64,000 nucleotides of DNA from Polaromonas sp. (GTDB taxonomy: Bacteria; Pseudomonadota; Gammaproteobacteria; Burkholderiales; Burkholderiaceae_C): the NCBI RefSeq assembly GCF_029945895.1, contig NZ_JAQSDL010000122.1, forward strand, positions 1 to 64,000, given 5' to 3'. Numbering within the stretch: the stretch's first letter is position 1; each line of letters starts with the position of its first letter. A program made the position numbers and the translations under genes. Below, in pieces: positions 3,302-64,000 of the stretch. The notes beneath the pieces are model-generated. The model was not told the DNA's origin, made no database searches, and was given only the letters and a program-made list of their open reading frames with translations.

Positions 3302-4558
3302 ATGACGAAGCAAGCAATCGAACAAGACCCCGTTCATGTTGGCGATCTGCCCGGCAAACACATCGTGCTGGGCCTGTCGGGCGGCATTGCCTGCTACAAG
3401 GCGGCGGAGTTGTGCCGCGCGCTGATCAAGCAGGGCGCCACCGTGCAGGTGGTCATGACCGAGGCCGCCGAGCAGTTCATCACGGCGGTGACGCTGCAGG
3501 CGCTCAGTGGCCGCCCGGTCTACACCAGCCAGTGGGACAGCCGAGAGGCCAACAACATGGCGCACATCAACCTGAGCCGCGAGGCTGACGCCATCCTGAT
3601 CGCGCCCTGCAGCGCCGACTTCATGGCCAAGCTGCTGCACGGCCGGGCTGACGACCTGCTCAGCCTGATGTGCCTGGCCCGGCCCATCGCCACGGTGCCG
3701 CTGCTGATTGCGCCGGCGATGAACCGTGAAATGTGGGCCCATCCCGCGACCCAGCGCAACATGGCGCAGCTGTCCGCCGATGGCGCCACCATCCTCGGCG
3801 TGGGCAGCGGTTTCCAGGCCTGCGGCGAAACCGGCGACGGGCGCATGCTGGAGCCGCCCGAACTGCTCGAAGACATCGTCGCCTTTTTCACCCCCAAGGT
3901 GCTGGCCGGCCAGCAGGTGCTGGTGACGGCGGGACCGACCTACGAGGCCATGGATCCGGTGCGCGGCATCACCAACCTGTCGAGCGGCAAGATGGGGTTT
4001 GCGGTGGCGCGCGCGGCACGCGAGGCCGGCGCCGAGGTCACGCTGGTGGCCGGGCCGGTGAGCCTGGGCACACCGCGTGGCGTCAAGCGCATCGACGTCA
4101 AGTCAGCACAAAACATGCTTGAAGCCGTTATGCAGCAAGCGCAGGCAGCTACTGTTTTCATAGCGACGGCGGCGGTGGCCGACTGGCGGCCGGCGAGCAG
4201 CGCGGAGCGCAAGATCAAGAAAGACGGCTCGGGCCAGGCGCCCCAGCTGGCGTTCACCGAGAACCCCGACATCCTGGCGACCGTGGCGCAATCGCCGCGC
4301 GGCGTATCGGGTGCGCTGTTCTGCGTGGGTTTTGCCGCCGAGAGCCACGACCTCGAGGACAACGCGCAGGCCAAGCGCCTGCGCAAGGGCGTGCCGCTGC
4401 TGGTGGGCAACATCGGCCCGGCCACCTTCGGCCGTGATGACAACGCCTTGTTGTTGGTCGATGCGCAGGGCAGCCGGGAGCTGGCGCGTGCCTCCAAGCT
4501 GTCGCTGGCGCGGCAACTGGTGGCAGAGATCGCCAGCCGGATCAAGCAGGCGAGGTGA
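3302..4558 (+). CDS. coaBC: Bifunctional phosphopantothenoylcysteine decarboxylase / phosphopantothenate-cysteine ligase
   Basis: CoaBC carries out two consecutive steps of coenzyme A synthesis. The N-terminal flavoprotein CoaC part shows GLSGGIACYKAAEL, the PAMNREMW motif and the active cysteine in FQACGETGDGRM. The C-terminal CoaB part shows the AAVADWRP motif followed by a KIKK lysine. The ATG at 3302 (MTKQAIEQ) fits family length (418 residues) better than a GTG 66 bases upstream. The stretch encoding about residues 270-288 overlaps a type-2 dispersed repeat (4111-4164) without lengthening the protein. The next gene overlaps the stop codon. Confidence 0.95.
   Translation: MTKQAIEQDPVHVGDLPGKHIVLGLSGGIACYKAAELCRALIKQGATVQVVMTEAAEQFITAVTLQALSGRPVYTSQWDSREANNMAHINLSREADAILIAPCSADFMAKLLHGRADDLLSLMCLARPIATVPLLIAPAMNREMWAHPATQRNMAQLSADGATILGVGSGFQACGETGDGRMLEPPELLEDIVAFFTPKVLAGQQVLVTAGPTYEAMDPVRGITNLSSGKMGFAVARAAREAGAEVTLVAGPVSLGTPRGVKRIDVKSAQNMLEAVMQQAQAATVFIATAAVADWRPASSAERKIKKDGSGQAPQLAFTENPDILATVAQSPRGVSGALFCVGFAAESHDLEDNAQAKRLRKGVPLLVGNIGPATFGRDDNALLLVDAQGSRELARASKLSLARQLVAEIASRIKQAR
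4111..4164 (-). repeat. Type-2 dispersed repeat, degenerate copy inside coaBC
   Basis: Read on the minus strand, this segment shows GCTATGAAAAC, then TAGCTGCCTGCGC, then a C-rich tail in place of the usual AAGGGCT. It matches the core of the other copies listed here but has a poor 3' half. It lies in frame within coaBC just before the AAVADWRP motif. Family membership is likely but this copy is degenerate. Confidence 0.55.
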
Positions 4559-11992: not shown

Positions 11993-12556
11993 CTACCCAG
12001 TGCGCTGGTCGATCAGGTAGCGTGGGACCGTCCCCGGCGCCACCAGTTCCCGCACGGCTGCAATCCGCTGTGTAAAGCGGTCGGGGGCTTGCTGGAAGCC
12101 ATCCTCAAAGGCGACCACCCGCAGGCCACGGCAGACATCGAGCAGCTCGCCGGGACGCAGCAGGAAATCGGGTCGCGAGGGTTTGCCCACGGTTTCGTTG
12201 CCCCGGGCAAAGGTTTCGTAAATCAGCACCCCACCCGGCGCCAGGCTGGCCAGCAGCGTGGGCAGCAGGGGGCGCCACAGGTAGTTGGTGACCACCACGG
12301 CGCCAAACTCGCGACCGGCAAAAGGCCAGGGGCCGGCCTCGATGTCGGCGACCACCTTCTCACAGCTGTCTGCCGGAATTGCTATGGAATCAATAGCTGC
12401 CTGCGCCCGATCCACAAGGGCCAGAGGGTGATTTCTCTGATGAAACCAGTAGGCGTGCCGGCCATGGCCGCAGGCGACGTCGAGCACGCGGCCCTGGGCC
12501 GGCACCAGGTGGGACCAGCGCCGGACCCAGGCGGACGGGGCTTCGCTTCCGTGCAT
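11993..12556 (-). CDS. Class I SAM-dependent methyltransferase (substrate unknown)
   Basis: The glycine-rich SAM motif is VLDVACGHGRHA, followed by an acidic residue in PLALVDRAQ and a VVVTNYLWRPLL post-I motif, in a single-domain protein of 187 residues. It resembles the TehB/UbiE-like group, but the substrate cannot be inferred. The ATG at 12556 is preferred over the adjoining TTG. A type-2 dispersed repeat (12381-12436) lies in frame directly after motif I and encodes the AQAAIDSIAIPAD stretch, which replaces or adds to the usual loop. It is probably a separate unit from dapA. Confidence 0.82.
   Translation of the reverse strand: MHGSEAPSAWVRRWSHLVPAQGRVLDVACGHGRHAYWFHQRNHPLALVDRAQAAIDSIAIPADSCEKVVADIEAGPWPFAGREFGAVVVTNYLWRPLLPTLLASLAPGGVLIYETFARGNETVGKPSRPDFLLRPGELLDVCRGLRVVAFEDGFQQAPDRFTQRIAAVRELVAPGTVPRYLIDQRTG
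12381..12436 (+). repeat. Type-2 dispersed repeat inside the methyltransferase gene
   Basis: This copy reads GCTATGGAATCA, ATAGCTGCCTGCGC, nine variable bases, then CAAGGGCCAGAGGG, matching the family layout closely. It lies antisense to, and in frame within, the methyltransferase gene. Confidence 0.75.
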
Positions 12557-12616
12557 CAACTTGCCCCATCGGAGTTTGATTGCGCCGCGACAGGCGTGGG
12601 AACTGCGTCTTCACCC

Positions 12617-19530: not shown

Positions 19531-20426
19531 GTTATTTCATGCATAAAAAATGGCTCCAGCCCTTGTGGCTGGTGCGCAGGCAGCTATCATTTTTGATAGC
19601 GGCTACCGTGCTGCTGCTGACCGGCACGGCAGCCCGCGCCGATGTCTGGGGTTATGTGGACGGCCAGGGCGTGGCGCATTTCTCGGCCGAGCGGCTTGAC
19701 GAGCGTTACCAGCTGTTTTTCCGCGGCGGCGAGAGTTTCGATACCGGCCGCAGCGGGCGCACTTCCGCGGCCACCTACGGCAACGGCATGCCCGGCGCAC
19801 CGCCCAGGCTGCTGGCCTTTTTCGACGTTTCACCCAACTACAAGGCGGTCAAACATTTGCTGCGCGAAGCGTCGGTGGCCAATGACATCGACTACGAGCT
19901 GCTGCAGGCCCTGATTGCCACCGAGTCGGGCTTCAACACCCATGCCGTGTCGCCCAAGGGCGCGGTGGGCCTGATGCAGCTGATGCCGCCCACAGCCCAG
20001 CGTTACGGCGTGCGGGCCGACAAAAATTCGCCGATCGAGAAAAAGCTGACCGACCCCAAGACCAACATCGTGGCCGGCTCGCGTTACCTGCGCTACCTGA
20101 TCGACCTGTTTCCCGGCCAGCTGGAGCTGGCGGTGGCGGCCTACAACGCCGGCGAAGGGGCGGTCCAGCGCTACGGCAACAAGATTCCCAACTATCCCGA
20201 GACCAAAAATTACGTCAAGACCGTGATGCAGCTCTACAGCCACCTCAAGCCGCCGAGCATGATCGGTGAAGCGCGGCGCTCCGGCCGTGTCCGGATGGAA
20301 ATGATGGGTGGCAGCAAAATCTCCTCCGGCTCGACCGCTGGCGGCGCCACCGGACGCGGCAACCAGCTGCCGACCCTGGTGGTACAAAGCCCGGTTGCAC
20401 CGGAATTCCGGGTCGAGCGCGATTAG
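19527..20426 (+). CDS. Periplasmic lytic transglycosylase (DUF4124 + SLT domains)
   Basis: The enzyme cleaves the glycan strands of peptidoglycan. After a signal peptide ending TGTAARA come a DUF4124-like N-terminal part (VWGYVDGQGVAHFS) and an SLT domain with the catalytic glutamate in LIATESGFN, then SPKGAVGLMQLMPPTA and AVAAYNAGEGAV. It has 299 residues from 19527; ATG 19539 is an alternative. A type-2 repeat (19545-19600) forms much of the signal-peptide coding sequence, so this export signal seems built from repeat DNA. It sits between parE and parC. Confidence 0.9.
   Translation: MSYFMHKKWLQPLWLVRRQLSFLIAATVLLLTGTAARADVWGYVDGQGVAHFSAERLDERYQLFFRGGESFDTGRSGRTSAATYGNGMPGAPPRLLAFFDVSPNYKAVKHLLREASVANDIDYELLQALIATESGFNTHAVSPKGAVGLMQLMPPTAQRYGVRADKNSPIEKKLTDPKTNIVAGSRYLRYLIDLFPGQLELAVAAYNAGEGAVQRYGNKIPNYPETKNYVKTVMQLYSHLKPPSMIGEARRSGRVRMEMMGGSKISSGSTAGGATGRGNQLPTLVVQSPVAPEFRVERD
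19545..19600 (-). repeat. Type-2 dispersed repeat encoding part of a signal peptide
   Basis: On the minus strand this reads GCTATCAAAAATG, ATAGCTGCCTGCGC, nine variable bases, ACAAGGGCTGGAGCCATTTT. It is one of the best-preserved copies. On the + strand it encodes KKWLQPLWLVRRQLSFLIA of the transglycosylase. Confidence 0.85.
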
Positions 20427-22948: not shown

Positions 22949-22960
22949 GGCGATCTATTT

Positions 22961-23014
22961 GCTATCTTGTTGATAGCTGATGACGCCCGTGGAATAAGGG
23001 CTGCGACCGATTTT
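22961..23014 (+). repeat. Type-2 dispersed repeat (intergenic, after parC)
   Basis: It reads GCTATCTTGTTG, ATAGCTGATGACGCC, then ATAAGGGCTGCGACCGATTTT. The 5' block and the AAGGGCT block are well kept. It starts 12 bases after the parC stop. It may contribute a hairpin at the transcript end. Confidence 0.75.
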
Positions 23015-23041
23015 CTTGTATTTTTTGATCGAACCGCAACG

Positions 23042-28576: not shown

Positions 28577-29326
28577 TTAAGGGGCTTGGACACGCGTGAA
28601 CACCACGTCCCAGACCCCATGCCCGAGCTTGATGCCGCGGTTTTCGAACTTGGTGAGTGGCCGGTAGTCGGGCTTGGCGGCATAACCGTCGGCACTGTCC
28701 GCCGTGTTTTTCAGCATAGGCTCTGCCTTGAGGACGTCAAGAATCTGCTCGGCGTAAGGCTGCCAGTCGGTGGCGCAGTGCAGGTAGCCGCCGGGCTTGA
28801 GGCGCGCCGCGAGTTTGGACACCAGCGGCGCCTGGATCAAGCGGCGCTTGTTGTGTTTTTTCTTGTGCCAGGGATCGGGAAAAAAAATGTGCGCGCCGTC
28901 CAGGCTGCCGGGCAGCAGCATGTGGTCCAGCACCTGCACCGCATCGTGTTGCAGGATGCGGATGTTTTCCAGCTGCTGTTCGCCAATGCGTTTGAGCAAG
29001 GCGCCGACGCCGGGCGTGTGCACTTCGCAGCATAGAAAGTTTTTTTCGGGCATCAACGCCGCAATATGCGCCGTGGCTTCACCCATGCCGAAGCCGATCT
29101 CCAGGACGCTGGGCGCGACACGTCCGAACGCAGCCTGGACGTCCAGCGGCGCCTCCGAATAGGGCAATAGAAACTTTGGCCCCGCGTCTGCAAAAGCCCT
29201 GGCCTGGCCGGCCGTGGTGCGGCCGGTGCGCAGGACAAAGCTGCGGATGGTGCGCATCCGGCTGGCGTCTGGTGAAGCGTCTTCTGGCGGAGCGGGCGGA
29301 AGTGGGGTGGTGGGGGATTCAATCAC
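28577..29326 (-). CDS. trmB: tRNA (guanine-46-N7)-methyltransferase
   Basis: TrmB places m7G at position 46 of the tRNA variable loop. The SAM motif is [14 protein letters not shown], and the family signature [14 protein letters not shown] is complete. GTG at 29326 overlaps the gluQ stop (GTGA), giving 249 residues with a Pro-rich N-terminal tail; an internal ATG at 29257 ([13 protein letters not shown]) would also give a plausible protein. It is coupled to gluQ, another tRNA-modification gene. Confidence 0.95.
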
Positions 29327-30297
29327 CGCTCAATTTTAGTCGCCCGGCCCCAGAGGGCTACCGCCTGCTGCAGCCAGTCAGCGGGCGTGCGCGCAGACAG
29401 GCCTGCGGGAAGACCGAGTACCTGCCCGGCCTCATCCAGTGCCTGCAGCGGTTGGGTGAGGTCCAGTGCGCTGGCACCGTTCTGTTTGGACAGCTTTTCG
29501 CCGTTGGCTCCGAGCACCAGCGGCGTATGCAGGTAACGCGGCAGTGGCAAGCCCAGTGCGCGCTGCAGCATGATTTGCCGCGCCGTGTTGTCGGCCAGGT
29601 CTTCCCCGCGAACGATGTCGGTGATGCCCTGCGCGGCGTCGTCCACCACCACCGCCAGCTGGTAGGCCCACAGGCCGTCGGCGCGCCTGAGCACGAAGTC
29701 GCCAACCACCTGCGCGACGTCCTGCTGCTGCGCGCCGAGCCGGCGGTCCTGCCAGTGGACAAGCTGGTCTGCTACCGAATCAGGAGCTGCTTGCGCCCAC
29801 GTAGCAAGGGCTGGCGGCCGATTGGGCTTGATAGTTTCAGTGAGGAAGCGCCACGCGCGTGCGGGACGACCCTGCAGGCCGTGGCGGCAGGTGCCGGGGT
29901 ACACCAGCTCGCCGTGGCGCGGCCGCGCCTGTCCACGTTCGGCCAGCGCCCGCTCAATGTCCTGCCGTGTGCAGGCGCAGGGGTAGGCGAGGTGGGCGGC
30001 AATCAGTGGGTCCAGTGCGGCCTGGTAGTGGCTGCCTCGCTGTGACTGGTACAGCGGCGGCGCATCCGGGTGCAGCCCGCAGGCGGCCAGCTGCTGCAGG
30101 ATCAGCGTGTCGGTGCCGGGCACGCAGCGCGGCGTGTCAATGTCTTCGATACGCACCAGCCACTGGCCGCCATGCGCCCGTGCGTCCAGCCAGCTCGCCA
30201 GCGCGGCGACCAGGGAGCCGGCGTGTAGCGGTCCCGTCGGAGAAGGGGCAAATCGACCGATATAGCGAGCGGGAAGACCACTGACCAAAGTTTGCAT
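29323..30297 (-). CDS. gluQ: Glutamyl-Q tRNA(Asp) synthetase
   Basis: GluQ-RS attaches glutamate to queuosine in the anticodon of tRNA-Asp. It is a truncated GluRS paralogue of 324 residues lacking the anticodon-binding domain. The HIGH-type motif is [13 protein letters not shown], zinc ligands lie in YPCACTR and the later YPGTC, and the KMSKS-like motif is KLSKQN. A type-2 repeat (29771-29825) lies in frame and encodes the [19 protein letters not shown] stretch in the variable region between the zinc site and VHWQDRRLG. Confidence 0.94.
29771..29825 (+). repeat. Type-2 dispersed repeat inside gluQ
   Basis: It reads GCTACCGAATCAGG, AGCTGCTTGCGCCC, nine variable bases, then GCAAGGGCTGGCGGCC. 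It is antisense to and in frame within gluQ, in a region that differs in length among GluQ proteins. Confidence 0.75.
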
Positions 30298-40800: not shown

Positions 40801-41396
40801 ACCTGTTCGACGAGGTCGAAACCGAGGTGCGGCAGTTCGTCAAGCGCAAGATCGACGACCTGATTGATTCGCGCGACCAGACCCTGCTGGCGGCCATCGT
40901 CAGCGACCTGCGCGTGATCAACGGCAACCGGGGCAAGCTGATCATCTTCAAGCTCGACGACAAGACCGACACGCTGGAAGCCTCGGTGGACGAGGCCACC
41001 TTCAATGCCAACCGCAACCTGCTGAAAGACGACGAACTGGTGATCGTGCAAGGCACGTTGCAGCCGGCGTCGGAGCGTTTCGGTCGCCGTTTCAAGGTCA
41101 CCCAGGTCTGGAGCCTGGAGTCGGCGCGCTGCCGCTTCGGCAAGTATCTGCGCGTGGCGGTCAACGGCAGCGCGCCGGATGTGCAGCGCATCGTGCGGGA
41201 CTTTCCTCCGCGCAAGGAGATGTCGGAGCAGGGCGAGGTCAGCCGCGGCCTGCCGGTGCGCCTGAGCCTCAAGCGCGACAGCGTGGTGGCTGAGCTGCAG
41301 CTCGGCGAGGCTGCGAAGTTTTTTCCGACCGATGCGGCGCTCGCCAGCTGGATGGCGCAGGCCGACCAGGGGCTGGCACAGATTGTCTATGAGTAA
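37890..41396 (+). CDS. dnaE: DNA polymerase III alpha subunit
   Basis: DnaE is the replicative polymerase. The N-terminal PHP domain begins [20 protein letters not shown], and the polymerase domain shows [20 protein letters not shown] and the catalytic aspartates in [15 protein letters not shown]. The fingers, a helix-hairpin-helix and an OB domain follow in 1168 residues, the size of the single essential DnaE1. The ATG at 37890 is standard. It is divergent from trhO, and a type-2 repeat lies right after its stop. Confidence 0.97.
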
Positions 41397-41450
41397 AAAA
41401 TGGCTGCAGCCCTTGCCCTGATTGCGCGGGCAGCTATTTTATTGATAGCG
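41396..41450 (-). repeat. Type-2 dispersed repeat between dnaE and tolA
   Basis: On the minus strand it reads GCTATCAATAAA, ATAGCTGCCCGCGC, nine variable bases, then GCAAGGGCTGCAGCCATTTT. It fills most of the gap between the convergent dnaE and tolA genes. Confidence 0.88.
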
Positions 41451-41467
41451 TTTGAGGTGCGTGGCGC

Positions 41468-43533: not shown

Positions 43534-44081
43534 GTTTTGGCTTCCAGACGATCAAGGATGTTGGCGGGAATTCTGGCGGGCTTCAGGCTGGCGGCGTCGA
43601 CCCAGCCGATGCGTATCGTGCCCTCACAAATCAATGTAGCCCCCACGCTTTTCGCTACGCGTAATTCGCTGCCCCCCGAGGGGGCTAATTTTCCTAGGGG
43701 CGGCCCGTCGGAAAATTGATTTTCGCCGGGATTTTCAAGAGACAACTCTGTTCGCTCTGATTTCAATAGCGCACTTTGCTGGATTATCAAGGACGCACGG
43801 CCCTTTTCAGTCAGACGTGCGGTAACAATCAGTTCATCGTCCAGTCGGGCAGGGCGCAGGTAACGAACGCTGGTTTGCGTCACCACGAACATGCCGCCGG
43901 TGGACTCACGCAGACGGTGCTGCTCAACGCCCAGTGATCTGAGCCACTCGGTGCGTGATCGTTCAAAAAACTTCAGGTAGTTGGCATAAAACACAATGCC
44001 ACCCGCATCCGTGTCTTCCCAGTAAACCCGCAAGGGCCACTGGAATGTGGAGGCATCCACGACACTGGGGGCTTCAGCCAA
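43530..44081 (-). CDS. ybgC: YbgC-type acyl-CoA thioesterase with a repeat-derived insertion
   Basis: A hotdog-fold thioesterase, the usual first gene of tol-pal operons. The core is intact: RVYWEDTDAGGIVFYANYLK with the catalytic Asp, RSRTEWLRSLGVEQ and SVRYLRPARLDDEL. The C-terminal strand LICEGTIRIGWVD is also conserved. Between them (residues about 111-149) is an in-frame insert of about 38 residues coming from a type-1 repeat, making the protein 183 residues against about 135-150 for the family. The start is probably TTG at 44081, overlapping the aminotransferase stop. Whether the insert is tolerated is unknown. Confidence 0.88.
43638..43712 (+). repeat. Type-1 dispersed repeat inserted inside ybgC
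   Basis: It reads AGCCCCCACGCTTTTCGCTA, CGCGTAATTCGCTG, CCCCCCGAGGGGG, then a shortened, diverged tail with GGGGCGGCCCGTCGG. It is antisense to ybgC and stays open in the ybgC frame. It is shorter than the 27417 and 28438 copies. Confidence 0.9.
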
Positions 44082-57770: not shown

Positions 57771-57794
57771 GCGGCTTCACCTGAAAGTTCAAGC

Positions 57795-57849
57795 ATTATT
57801 GGCCTCCGGCCCTCACAGGGCATGCGCAAGCAGCTATCAAAAGAGTAGC
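57795..57849 (-). repeat. Type-2 dispersed repeat between glyA and nrdR
   Basis: On the minus strand it reads GCTACTCTTTTG, ATAGCTGCTTGCGC, variable bases, then GAGGGCCGGAGGCCAATAAT. It fills about half of the glyA-nrdR gap. Confidence 0.85.
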
Positions 57850-57870
57850 GCTTGCACATGCGTCGGTCCA

Positions 57871-59115: not shown

Positions 59116-59346
59116 GGCAGTCCTTCAAGACGTGGTCCCTGTCATTGGATGAATGAAACAAGGGCTGCCCAGGCGAACGGCTGAACGCTGTGGTCATCGC
59201 TTGAGCCCAGCGGTGCGCTTCCCAGTGGTATCCCACGTCAGCAGTCGCCCTGCAAAGCAGGAGCTGCCTATCGCCAGTCGCGCACACCCCTAGTGTAACG
59301 GACCCGGCGCCTGGCTGACGCCCGGCCGGTCAAAGGCCGGATTGGC

Positions 59347-61016: not shown

Positions 61017-64000
61017 ATGCCCGGCCATGAACTGAAACGCCACCCCTCCCGACTCTCCGGTCTCTTCAAGTCCTTGCCCGGCACAGCAGCGGGCGTGCTG
61101 CGCTCCCCCCGATGGCCTCGCCGCGCAGCCTGGGCTGTGGGCAGTCTGTTATTGCTCTGGGCGCTGGCCTATGCCCTGGTGCCGATGCTGCTGAAATGGC
61201 AGTTAGAAAAAACGGGTTCTGAAAAACTGGGACGGCAGGTCACGGTGGGCGCGGTCGATTTCCGTCCGTGGTCGCTGGAACTGACCCTGCATGACCTCGC
61301 CATCGCCAAAGCCGGCGCTGCAGAGCCGCCCGAGCGTGCCCGGCTTTCCCCAGGGGTGCCCCAGATAAAAATTGCGCGTCACTATATAGATGCAGAAATG
61401 CAATCGCTGCTGCGCCTTGCGCCAGTCGCCGACGCCATCGAGGTCGATGGACTGGCACTGGCGCTCACCCATCTGGGCCAGGGCCGTTATGACGTGGACG
61501 ACATCCTGGCGCGCCTGAAGCCCCCGGCCGATGCACCGGCCAGCGACCCGCTGCGCTTTGCGCTTTACAACCTGGTGCTCGGTGACGCCAGGCTTGACTT
61601 CGTGGACCTTCCGGCAGGCCGGACCCATGCGGTGCGCGACCTGCACCTGTCGATTCCCTTCCTGAGCAACCTGCGCTCCCAGCGCGAGGTCAAAACCTCG
61701 CCGCACCTGGCTTTCAGGCTCAATGGCAGCCGTTTCGACACCGCTGCCGTCGGCACGCCTTTCGCACAGACGCGCAAGACCGACGCCACGCTGGCCCTGC
61801 GCGGGCTGGACCTGCGTCCTTACCTGGCTTACTGGCCGGAAAGCCTGCCTTTCAGGCTGGAAAGCGCGGTACTCAACGCCGACATCAAGCTTGCTTTTGA
61901 GCAGGCACCGGCGACCGTGATGCGTGTGTCGGGCACCGCCACCGCGGAGCAGGTGCGCCTGCTTGACACCCAGGCCGGCCGTCGGGAGTTGCTGTCCTTT
62001 GACCGGCTGGAGGTCGGCCTGGACGACGTCCGGCCGCTGGAGCGCAGCGTCAAACTGTCCGCCGTGACCCTGAGCGCGCCCACATTCAACCTGAGCCGCG
62101 ACCGCGCCGGGCGCCTGAACCTGCTGCCGCCAGAAGACGAGTTTGCTACTAAAAACAGAGCTGACGGCGCACGTGCAGAAAGGGCTACAGGCCAAAATGA
62201 TGTAGACAATGGGGCGAAACCGGCGGTTGCACCTTCAGCTGGCGCTTCTATGGTTACGCCGGTACCGCCGCCTGGGGCCAGCGCGGCAGCCGCCCCGTGG
62301 CGCGTGCAGGTCGACCGGGTGGCCGTGCGCCAGGGCAAGCTGAACTGGCTGGACGAAACCCTGACCACGCCCGCGCAGATAGGGCTGTCGGGCTTGACCC
62401 TGGATGCCTCGGCCATCGCCTATCCTTTTTCCGCCGACGCGCCCCTGAAGTTCGAGGGGGAGGTCGGGCTGGCGCAGCCGGTGGCCACTTCCTTGCCGGC
62501 AGGCCGCAAGGCGGCGGTGGCCGCCCAGGCTCCGGGAGCACCACAGGCTGCGACGGCGCTCCTGCGTTTCAGCGGCAGCGCCACCGACCAGGCGGCCCGG
62601 CTCACGGCCAGTGTGGCGGCCTGGCCGCTCAACATGGCCGCCAGATATGTGGGCCAGTTCCTGCTGCCGGCCCTCAATGGCCAGCTTGACGCGCAGCTGG
62701 GCGTGAACTGGCAGGCGGCCGGCGCCGGCAAGGCGCAGGTGCTGCAACTGTCCGCGCCGCAGATGACGGTCAGCGATGTCCAGCTCGCCCAGGGCAAGAC
62801 CTCGCTGGTGTCTGTCAAGAAGGTGGAGCTTTTGCAGGCCGACATTGACCTCATGGCGCAAACCCTCAAGGCCGCCAGCATGCAGCTGGTGCAGCCCAAA
62901 GCCCGGGTGGAGCGCGGCAGCGACAAGCGCTGGATGTACGAACGCTGGCGTTTGGCGCAGGCCAAGGCGCCCCCGCCACCACCGGCGACCGGGGGGGTGG
63001 GCGCGCCTGCCTGGAGCGTCGCCATCAACGAGGTGCAGCTCGAAGGCGGCGCCATGTCGTTTTCCGACAAGGCGGGCGCCAGTCCGGTGAGTTTTGAAGT
63101 GAGCGCTGCCAATGCCCGGCTCGGGTCTCTGGTGCTGGACGACCGCGTGGCCGCCAAAACCATGCCCTTGAGTGCTTCGCTGCGTCTGGCCAGCGGGCGG
63201 TTTGAGCCGGGCAGGCTGGCTTTCAACGGCAGCATCGGCCTCACGCCGGTTCAGGCCCAGGGCCGGCTGGTGCTGGACCGGTTGCCGCTGCAGGCCTTTG
63301 AGCCTTATCTGGCCGACGCACTCAATATAGAGCTGCTGCGTGCCGATGCCAGTTTCAAGGGCCGCGTGGCTTATCGGCAGACGGCCGGCGGGCCGGTGGC
63401 GCAGCTCAATGGCGACCTGGCGCTGGAAGAGTTTCGTGCCAACACGCTGGCGCCCAGCGAAGAGTTGCTGGCGTGGAAGGCGCTCAGCCTGCGCGGCCTG
63501 CAGGTCGCGCTGGACCCGGCCCGGGCCACGAAGGTCGATGTCAGGGAGACCGTGCTGACCGATTTTTTTGCGCGGGTGATCGTCACGCCCGAAGGGCGAA
63601 TCAACCTGCAGGACCTGGCCAAAGCTTCAGCCCATGCTGCTCCGGATGCTCCTGAAACCATAGCTGGAGAGGCAATCAGTGAAAGGGCTGGAGGCCTGAA
63701 GCAGGATCGAGCTTCCGGCGCAGCCGCCCCCGTTGCTCCGGCAGCGCAAGCAGTTGCAGCGTCGGGCAGGCAAGGCCCGGCCCCCGTCATCACGATCGGG
63801 CCGGTGCGGCTGGTCAACGGCAGGGTGCTGTTTTCCGACCGTTTCGTCAAACCCAACTACACCGCCAACCTGAGCGAGCTGAGCGGCCAGCTCAGTGCGT
63901 TTTCTTCCGTGGCGTCCGGCGCGGCATCGGGTGCTGCGCCTGCCATGGCGAACCTGGAACTGCGCGGCAAGGCCGAGGGCACCGCTTCGCTGGAGGTTCT
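61017..64000 (+). CDS. AsmA/DUF748-family envelope protein (runs off right edge)
   Basis: A very large protein, at least 994 residues here. It begins MPGHELKRHPSRLSGL, followed by one membrane helix (residues about 45-61, AVGSLLLLWALAYALVPML) and then long beta-rich periplasmic repeats. The DUF748 signature VGAVDFRPWSLELTLHDLAI lies near residue 82. AsmA-like proteins bridge inner and outer membrane and are thought to move phospholipids. Two type-2 repeats (62145 and 63648) lie in frame in linkers (residues about 377-396 and 878-896). The ATG at 61017 is 71 bases after the terminator. Confidence 0.88.
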   Translation, partial: MPGHELKRHPSRLSGLFKSLPGTAAGVLRSPRWPRRAAWAVGSLLLLWALAYALVPMLLKWQLEKTGSEKLGRQVTVGAVDFRPWSLELTLHDLAIAKAGAAEPPERARLSPGVPQIKIARHYIDAEMQSLLRLAPVADAIEVDGLALALTHLGQGRYDVDDILARLKPPADAPASDPLRFALYNLVLGDARLDFVDLPAGRTHAVRDLHLSIPFLSNLRSQREVKTSPHLAFRLNGSRFDTAAVGTPFAQTRKTDATLALRGLDLRPYLAYWPESLPFRLESAVLNADIKLAFEQAPATVMRVSGTATAEQVRLLDTQAGRRELLSFDRLEVGLDDVRPLERSVKLSAVTLSAPTFNLSRDRAGRLNLLPPEDEFATKNRADGARAERATGQNDVDNGAKPAVAPSAGASMVTPVPPPGASAAAAPWRVQVDRVAVRQGKLNWLDETLTTPAQIGLSGLTLDASAIAYPFSADAPLKFEGEVGLAQPVATSLPAGRKAAVAAQAPGAPQAATALLRFSGSATDQAARLTASVAAWPLNMAARYVGQFLLPALNGQLDAQLGVNWQAAGAGKAQVLQLSAPQMTVSDVQLAQGKTSLVSVKKVELLQADIDLMAQTLKAASMQLVQPKARVERGSDKRWMYERWRLAQAKAPPPPPATGGVGAPAWSVAINEVQLEGGAMSFSDKAGASPVSFEVSAANARLGSLVLDDRVAAKTMPLSASLRLASGRFEPGRLAFNGSIGLTPVQAQGRLVLDRLPLQAFEPYLADALNIELLRADASFKGRVAYRQTAGGPVAQLNGDLALEEFRANTLAPSEELLAWKALSLRGLQVALDPARATKVDVRETVLTDFFARVIVTPEGRINLQDLAKASAHAAPDAPETIAGEAISERAGGLKQDRASGAAAPVAPAAQAVAASGRQGPAPVITIGPVRLVNGRVLFSDRFVKPNYTANLSELSGQLSAFSSVASGAASGAAPAMANLELRGKAEGTASLEV
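62145..62204 (+). repeat. Type-2 dispersed repeat in frame within the DUF748 gene, copy 1
   Basis: It reads GCTACTAAAAACAG, AGCTGACGGCGCAC, then GAAAGGGCTACAGGCCAAAA and TGATG. It is in the sense orientation and encodes a polar linker (ATKNRADGARAERATGQND). Confidence 0.85.
63648..63700 (+). repeat. Type-2 dispersed repeat in frame within the DUF748 gene, copy 2
   Basis: It reads GCTCCTGAAACC, ATAGCTGGAGAGGC, then GTGAAAGGGCTGGAGGCC. It has the same orientation and same frame as the 62145 copy and encodes APETIAGEAISERAGGLKQ, again in a linker rich in Ala and Pro. Confidence 0.8.

Follow-up and report, generated by a model that had tools for sequence, protein, structure and literature searches.

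Copies of a short DNA element keep their positions and share genome-specific dialects in Polaromonas, two of them in frame within a DUF748 gene

Repeats that lie in frame inside genes, in some open reading frames (ORFs) twice, have been described as Rickettsia palindromic elements (RPE; PMC3733652). Repetitive extragenic palindromes (REP) of the GTAG/CGTC type, with their REPtrons, occur in many copies near gene ends, overlap stop codons and are in part found within genes (PMC3733652). DNA uptake sequences (DUS) in Neisseriaceae and uptake signal sequences (USS) in Pasteurellaceae are present in hundreds of copies with lineage dialects, some of them intragenic, and are 9–11 bp long (PMC4212676). 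BRE, a small repeat of Polaromonas, Rhodoferax, Delftia, Acidovorax and Bordetella with some copies within coding sequences, is 75–91 bp long in Bordetella, forms tandem arrays and reaches at most 29 copies (in Polaromonas JS666; PMC3110155). In 2017, two motif pairs were listed as potential novel motifs, ATAGCT(N)22CAAAAG with 125 copies in Polaromonas naphthalenivorans CJ2, of which 18 are intragenic, and GCTTAT(N)5AAGCG with 114 in Acidovorax ebreus TPSY, both mostly intergenic near gene ends and with 44 and 34 copies between convergent genes, in a survey in which Rhodoferax ferrireducens T118 was the genome with the most motif pairs (PMC5217627, Table 7). Here we describe a DNA element, with a conserved core of ~48 bp and a full footprint of 61–70 bp, from a 64,000-nucleotide stretch of Polaromonas sp. 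(contig NZ_JAQSDL010000122.1, positions 1 to 64,000; hereafter the window), two copies of which lie in the gene of a DUF748/AsmA-like protein.

The element resembles the two motif pairs in bacterial family, in the word ATAGCT, in copy number and in placement. GCTTAT(N)5AAGCG is found at exactly the reported spacing in element copies of two sampled genomes (G085 and G003), whereas only ATAGCT of the other pair fits the source genome of the window, where positions 40–45 read CTGGAG. Related motif pairs had thus already been listed, without a recognised-motif interpretation; the section that lists them treats them as two separate, unexplained pairs in single genomes and describes neither a complete element or its dialects nor peptides in frame or orthologous sites (PMC5217627). 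A preliminary description of the window, made from its sequence, had compared the repeat to RPE. The parallel holds for in-frame occurrence, but the element shows no palindrome covariation and no sign of recent spread, its positions are common to much of the genus, and it belongs to another bacterial class. Its consensus reads AATAG, with A at position 12 in 76% of copies and G in 23%, so that most copies lack the GTAG tag of GTAG/CGTC REP; it is also longer than these sequences, is absent from the only Y1_Tnp gene found and has dialects at conserved positions. The element resembles uptake sequences in its hundreds of copies, its lineage-specific dialects and its intragenic occurrence, but it is long (~48–65 bp against 9–11 bp; PMC4212676), and its information is spread over positions −2 to ~62 rather than held in a short core of ~10 bp. 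BRE, as described, differs from it in length, tandem arrays and copy number. A keyword search of the literature outside subscription papers turned up no account of this element lying in frame, varying by dialect or keeping its positions, and literal words of its sequence had no match in that literature.

The DUF748 gene (61017–63998, + strand; Pfam DUF748 486 bits, AsmA 50.5 bits) has an open frame of 1335 amino acids that continues past the window end. Copy 1 (62142–62202, +) lies sense and in frame in linker 1 of the protein (residues ATKNRADGARAERATGQN), and copy 2 (63645–63705, +), which is degenerate, in the same manner in linker 2 (residues APETIAGEAISERAGGLK); their translations are FATKNRADGARAERATGQNDV and DAPETIAGEAISERAGGLKQD, respectively. 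The repeats, each ~61–70 bp long, start 1503 bp apart in one codon frame, as the preliminary description had claimed, and the tail of copy 1 probably extends to ~62209. A covariance model built from seven other window copies scored copy 1 at 41.2 bits (E = 3.5e-11) but did not recover copy 2 under standard cut-offs (5.5 bits once the filters were switched off). A profile of 97 own-genome copies, none taken from DUF748, was used in its place, and gave 56.6 bits for copy 1 and 16.2 bits for copy 2, against a maximum of −5.1 bits in 30 dinucleotide-model shuffles of 64 kb on both strands. The two repeats are therefore confirmed as real copies of one element rather than a chance similarity. Copy 2 is further supported because site 2 carries the element in orthologous loci of other Polaromonas: at a profile score above 14 bits, 14 of the 18 named loci of this genus are occupied at site 1 and 13 at site 2, and in L121, among the five without a site-2 copy, the contig ends there. 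The common frame of both copies is weak evidence, since it is simply the most open sense frame of the element (57 of 99 own-genome copies are stop-free over 69 bp in the DUF748 sense frame, against 7 and 31 in the other two).

In the source genome the motif reads GCTAY-N2-AAT-N2-ATAGCTGCTTGCGC-N9-AAGGGCTGGAGGCC-N2-TTT, and its letters are conserved between roughly −2 and +62, counted from GCTA. The nine copies in the window have a common 37-bp core with an identical gap of nine bases, and all share a 5′ GCT (GCTA in eight), although it was not used for finding them. With a loose 48-base pattern and at most three mismatches, 381 matches are found in the 4.12 Mb assembly, i.e., about one per 10.8 kb, compared with a single match of the reversed-pattern control. 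At least 10 copies are present in 28 of 100 sampled genomes of the family (the source genome included), and each of the 195 genomes of other families in a sample of 200 from the order has at most one match, the control level.

At the ~9 sites checked, copies of the element keep their positions across Polaromonas. A synteny of ~40 kb joins the window to G099, a sister species, and within it each genome has four strong elements that correspond one-to-one in equal relative orientation; one pair (at 22961 in the window) is ~120 bp off, beyond the aligned block, and the window copies at 4107, 12378 and 19542 are outside the synteny. The paired copies are identical in only 26–35 of 48 positions, and by dialect every copy is placed with its own genome, in an assignment that was not leave-one-out and whose profiles may include tested copies (at least the G099 copy at 4300511). 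Among the 18 named loci, a further element site near 67 kb is occupied in 12, and occupied DUF748 and ~67-kb sites always keep one orientation. Eleven of 14 other Polaromonas loci carry the copy 3′ of glyA, the TrmJ site is common to G116, and the RND adaptor site to G123 and G118, these being the only orthologues found in the DNA examined. Presence and absence also go together: in 12 genomes, among them the source genome and G099, the glyA copy occurs along with both DUF748 copies, whereas all three are missing from L115 and L116, as are from L121 the two that it covers (p = 0.002 with L121; 1/91 without it, computed by hand). At the sites and genomes examined, the copies were thus in place before the Polaromonas species separated, and their positions are stable. 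As for L115, which is Polaromonas sp. CF318, the 14.4 kb around DUF748 contain no element above 14 bits and no peptide in either linker, and a low-scoring relic (−14.5 bits) lies 3′ of glyA.

Stable in position, the copies differ in sequence from genome to genome in a consistent way, which we refer to as dialects. For example, among the matches listed, copies read GCGCTTG...CAAGCGCT in G015, GCCCAT...ATGGGCT in G099, GAGCAGTAT...TGGGCT in G035 and GCGCATAT...GGGGGCT in G040. When the DUF748 copies of six genomes were compared with profiles of 30 copies per genome, 10 of 11 fitted the profile of their own genome best, and 177 of 180 ordinary copies were assigned correctly as a control; the 30 copies were the best-matching places among the matches listed for G035, G015, G039, G040 and G099, and a random draw from the sample for the source genome. 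Across 56 Polaromonas copies, in a comparison in which species relatedness was not modelled, copies at different sites were 0.580 alike within species and 0.529 between species (permutation p = 0.0005), and same-site copies were 0.595 alike. Likeness by site and likeness by species together make both descent and a genome-wide shift visible.

The codons used within the DUF748 peptides show at which level the sequence is held. The peptides were picked by amino-acid pattern only, which avoids the bias of selection by profile score. In Polaromonas (three alanines per peptide; 31 sites in 17 of 21 genes), GCT encodes 78 of 89 alanines, compared with 261 of 3267 in the remainder of those genes; the corresponding figures for other Comamonadaceae (18 sites, 15 of 61 genes) are 42 of 50 and 299 of 2851. 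The same linkers in unrelated codons, a pattern that the preliminary description had set against insertion, were seen in neither group. Outside the linkers, GCT stays GCT between Polaromonas in 474 of 3167 aligned alanine pairs (15%). TrmJ of G116, 87% identical overall, is diverged over the element, where the element still scores 38.7 bits. The retention of GCT and the TrmJ pattern together indicate low constraint at the protein level and high constraint at the DNA level over the same bases. At the sites examined, the element sequence is thus held as DNA, within coding regions too, and its drift follows a dialect common to the whole genome.

Little in these copies speaks for folding or recent copying. 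Across 99 own-genome copies no Watson-Crick covariation was detected (excess 0.10 against a permuted mean maximum of 0.125), although the consensus contains short inverted repeats, and the element can be read as a linear word that may contain half-sites. A function as a hairpin or RNA was considered and is disfavoured by the lack of covariation and of transcription-strand bias and the lack of an Rfam match at any window element. The best pair among the 99 copies is identical at 42 of 48 positions, where permuted columns give a mean maximum of 42.0, and no near-identical copies exist among them. These copies come from stretches covering about one tenth of the genome and chosen around the best matches, which favours good copies; candidate scoring covered 150 of 2989 candidates.

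How copies came to lie inside genes can be read from their hosts. Besides DUF748 (twice), these are GluQRS, CoaBC, a methyltransferase-like ORF, TrmJ, MurI, DapF, XdhA and the end of a short ORF, identified by matches in PDB (TrmJ, MurI, DapF, XdhA, GluQRS and CoaBC) or Pfam (DUF748 and the methyltransferase); three further hosts are, judging by their sequence, probably RpoN, an MBL-fold hydrolase and an RND adaptor. The element is read in three modes: sense, as AxKxIA...RAxGQ; sense shifted by one, as LLxNQELLA, with E or K replacing TAG; and antisense, as PLALAxxAQAAIxxIA. In gluQRS (glutamyl-Q tRNA(Asp) synthetase; 29323–30297, −), the element (29768–29828, +; 61.4 bits) is antisense and in frame, and insertion is seen most clearly here. 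The match to PDB 1nzj from E. coli (E = 1.7e-57) is split around it, with 65 residues opposite 31, and the alignments to seven order-level outgroups are interrupted at residues 151–153 and continue from 174–179; in one of these, G136, the DNA is directly adjacent across the break. Thirty GluQRS loci were returned from 41 genomes (24 of the same genus were searched and gave 19 loci). The element is present in 13 of the 19 other same-genus genomes plus the source genome, and no insert is found in any of 10 outgroup loci, two of which (L212 and L214) resemble GluRS. One locus lacking the element, L203 (gluQRS of G102), keeps a long insert with no element letters (profile −44.7), as if decayed.

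TrmJ likewise gains ~22 residues at the element, and the alignments of GluQRS and TrmJ show a true insertion of that length in each. DapF and MurI show a net gain of 11 residues each, and XdhA, where the element is in a variable linker, shows none. The coaBC copy (4107–4167, −; 63 bits by covariance model, 56.7 bits by profile) is antisense and adds no length: in the three structure alignments shown, a conserved stretch runs gapless over it, i.e., there is no insertion. Orthologues of coaBC from Polaromonas were not found within the DNA stretches examined. From these comparisons, some of the intragenic copies, at the least, probably arose when a unit of ~66–70 bp was inserted.

For DUF748 itself, where in-frame insertion had been proposed in the preliminary description, the picture is mixed. 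The linkers are Ala/Pro-rich and too variable for exact insertion borders to be provable by alignment; the proposal stands for the family (GluQRS and TrmJ), and in DUF748 the linker lengths agree with it, most clearly at site 1. There, the compared stretch measures 49, 53, 55 and 52 residues in the four Polaromonas lacking the peptide, compared with a median of 69 in the 17 that have it, although one of the four, L119, has the element by DNA profile (23.5 bits); over all sequences the medians are 60.5 residues with the peptide (n = 30) and 50 without (n = 52; p = 6e-5). Site 2 is less clear, with 85 residues in sequences with the peptide (n = 19) and 76.5 in those without (n = 60; p = 0.004), and three of the five Polaromonas lacking the peptide still have long linkers of 102–104 residues.

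Most copies lie just 3′ of genes and between convergent genes, according to gene calls from a simple caller trained on the DNA stretches examined. Thirteen of the 99 sampled own-genome copies lie within genes (two of 15 intragenic matches, at −49.3 and 7.4 bits, were dropped), where the coding fraction of the stretches is 0.79, and 35 of 82 copies in gaps between called genes are between convergent genes, compared with 48 of 240 gaps of at least 50 bp (p = 0.0001). Between tandem gene pairs, 14 copies are sense and 19 antisense, i.e., there is no transcription-strand bias. In 11 of 24 gene-end-overlapping copies the overlap with a sense gene is exactly 10, 15 or 19 bp; at these lengths the stop codon would come from the element itself, as TNA or TAG. 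In G099, the 68 copies listed for contig C1 (at most two mismatches) are strand-skewed, with 5+/13− in 0–1 Mb and 14+/1− in 3–4 Mb; a replication-strand polarity was not accepted, since the GC skew is weak (20 stretches) and the chromosome was divided post hoc.

The remaining copies of the window follow this pattern of placement in part. One is antisense in a SAM-methyltransferase-like ORF (12378–12438, +, 65 bits; ORF 11993–12559, −; Pfam Methyltransf_25), and another is between genes by gene calls (19542–19603, −; 66 bits by covariance model). The intergenic copy at 22958–23018 (+, 56.5 bits) is the one whose G099 partner lies ~120 bp off in the corresponding gap. A copy between convergent genes (41392–41452, −; 66.4 bits) has a 5-bp gene-end overlap and is common to G099, where it is in another dialect. 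The copy just 3′ of glyA is at 57792–57852 (−, 58.5 bits), and a ZMP/ZTP riboswitch (RF01750, 52.9 bits) is located at 59160–59291 (−), just upstream of this gene. A weak element-like stretch inside a gene (43754–43801, +; 10.2 bits), which has 12.4 bits at the same place in G099, may be chance or a precursor.

Taken together, we favour, with somewhat more confidence than doubt, the reading that the element is an anciently dispersed DNA motif that is recognised in trans, maintained in situ and co-evolving genome by genome, with the peptides as by-products. A trans-acting factor, most simply a DNA-binding protein reading the double strand as a linear motif, would keep the copies alive; a change in its specificity would drag all copies along and thus shift the dialect, and its loss would let the copies decay together. 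Such a loss would explain the jointly empty or decayed sites in CF318, NC_groundwater_594 and perhaps RYN574, of each of which 8–15 kb were seen (NC_groundwater_594 has one weak match elsewhere). In some genes at least, such as gluQRS and trmJ, the element would originally have been dispersed by being inserted as a whole, and the in-frame peptides would be tolerated in linkers and surface loops. Two guesses seem best as to the factor's job: a DNA-uptake signal specific to the species, or a site serving chromosome organisation or gene ends. A bolder version, possible but in our judgement doubtful, is an undescribed recognition system throughout the Comamonadaceae, in which a protein machine reads a word of ~50–65 bp, far exceeding the length of any uptake signal known to us. 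Several hundred fixed copies would then shift dialect jointly with the specificity of this reader, under a pressure sufficient to preserve the word within enzyme genes and so to force in-frame peptides of ~20 residues into proteins such as GluQRS, TrmJ, MurI and DapF.

Several observations count against a maintained, trans-recognised motif. No trans-acting factor was found or narrowed down. The one DUF748 copy of the 11 that departs from its own profile, at site 2 of the source genome, fits the dialect of the sister species better, and in L105 the site-1 peptide is kept although no match in the DNA exceeds 14 bits. The evidence for shared positions comes from ~9 sites rather than the whole genome, the element is missing from GluQRS in 6 of 19 same-genus genomes, and the pattern of joint absence rests on 2–3 loci, one of which, L116, has a further element-like match of 21.8 bits 4.9 kb beyond the aligned part. 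The CoaBC case is poorly explained by maintenance, as it is by pure insertion. In the source genome there are five pairs at 42/48, where 1.0 is expected, and five identical 9-base loops, where 0.5 is expected; in the 30-copy lists, G035 has seven pairs at 42 against 0.9 expected, and in G099 a single pair reaches 44/48. This excess of similar pairs may reflect some old copying or sub-classes. The arms of the second inverted repeat, read by eye, vary jointly from genome to genome, as those of a hairpin might.

Other histories would make the element, or its dialects, a product of copying. The preliminary description regarded the repeat as one that spreads, and a Rickettsia-style mobile palindromic element entering genes in its one open frame would account for the 13 of 99 copies inside genes and the in-frame occurrence in many genes, for the ~22-residue inserts in GluQRS and TrmJ, for the same-genus genomes without the GluQRS copy and for the mild excess of similar pairs. 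That it is still spreading is not borne out: no near-identical copies exist among 99 (the best pair being 42/48), all strong sites testable in synteny (four) are common to both species, same-site copies extend through much of the genus, and at these maintained dialect sites synonymous letters within the element are held against saturation. We regard ongoing mobility as improbable. A fossil family of REP or miniature inverted-repeat transposable elements, moved by a REP-associated tyrosine transposase (RAYT), is a little less so. In that case the dialects would be amplifications in separate lineages, with the DUF748 linkers hit repeatedly, in keeping with the separate subfamily of each genome and with GTAG REPs inside genes that in print hit some ORFs twice (PMC3733652). 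It also agrees with the distribution of occupied loci, since 10 of 12 DUF748 loci with the element and 6 of 18 without it lie in genomes having at least 10 copies (p = 0.011, with a post-hoc threshold). This occupancy count covers 30 loci at a threshold of 24 chosen after the scores were seen; 66 of 100 family genomes have a DUF748 match, and L048 and L063 have one occupied DUF748 site each. The source genome does contain one Y1_Tnp gene, but no element lies within 1.5 kb of this sole gene, for which reason RAYT mobility was set aside; moreover, no hairpin covariation exists, and separate amplifications would not reproduce the sites, orientations and frames that sister species share in different dialects.

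Ancient insertions could, alternatively, have been homogenised by gene conversion, with concerted evolution in the absence of any recogniser, an explanation to which we give low credence, slightly above that of a still-spreading element and slightly below that of a fossil one. It would fit the likeness of dialect across sites within species as well as the surplus of similar loops and of 42/48 pairs. Conversion, however, copies whole tracts, yet the best pair among 99 copies (42/48) only reaches the permuted-column maximum, and the element copies are very short for recombination. As for chance or protein-level likeness of Ala-rich linkers, both linkers are indeed rich in Ala and Pro and variable in aligned orthologues, but the reading is refuted by profile scores far over the null, by GCT at 78 of 89 alanines in a GC-rich gene that otherwise uses it for 8%, and by DNA that fits the dialect of the local genome; we assign it practically no weight.

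If a maintained, trans-recognised motif is the correct reading, several hundred sites per genome would be read by a factor in a large family of environmental bacteria, and the specificity of that factor would be traceable through the dialects without experiment. The element would then allow a natural test of the way in which a motif spread over a whole genome can switch dialect while its copies stay in place, and would be a clear case of DNA-level constraint that overrides synonymous and protein-level freedom inside genes. For annotation, recurring Ala-rich 'linkers' in proteins of Comamonadaceae can be footprints of a DNA motif rather than protein domains.

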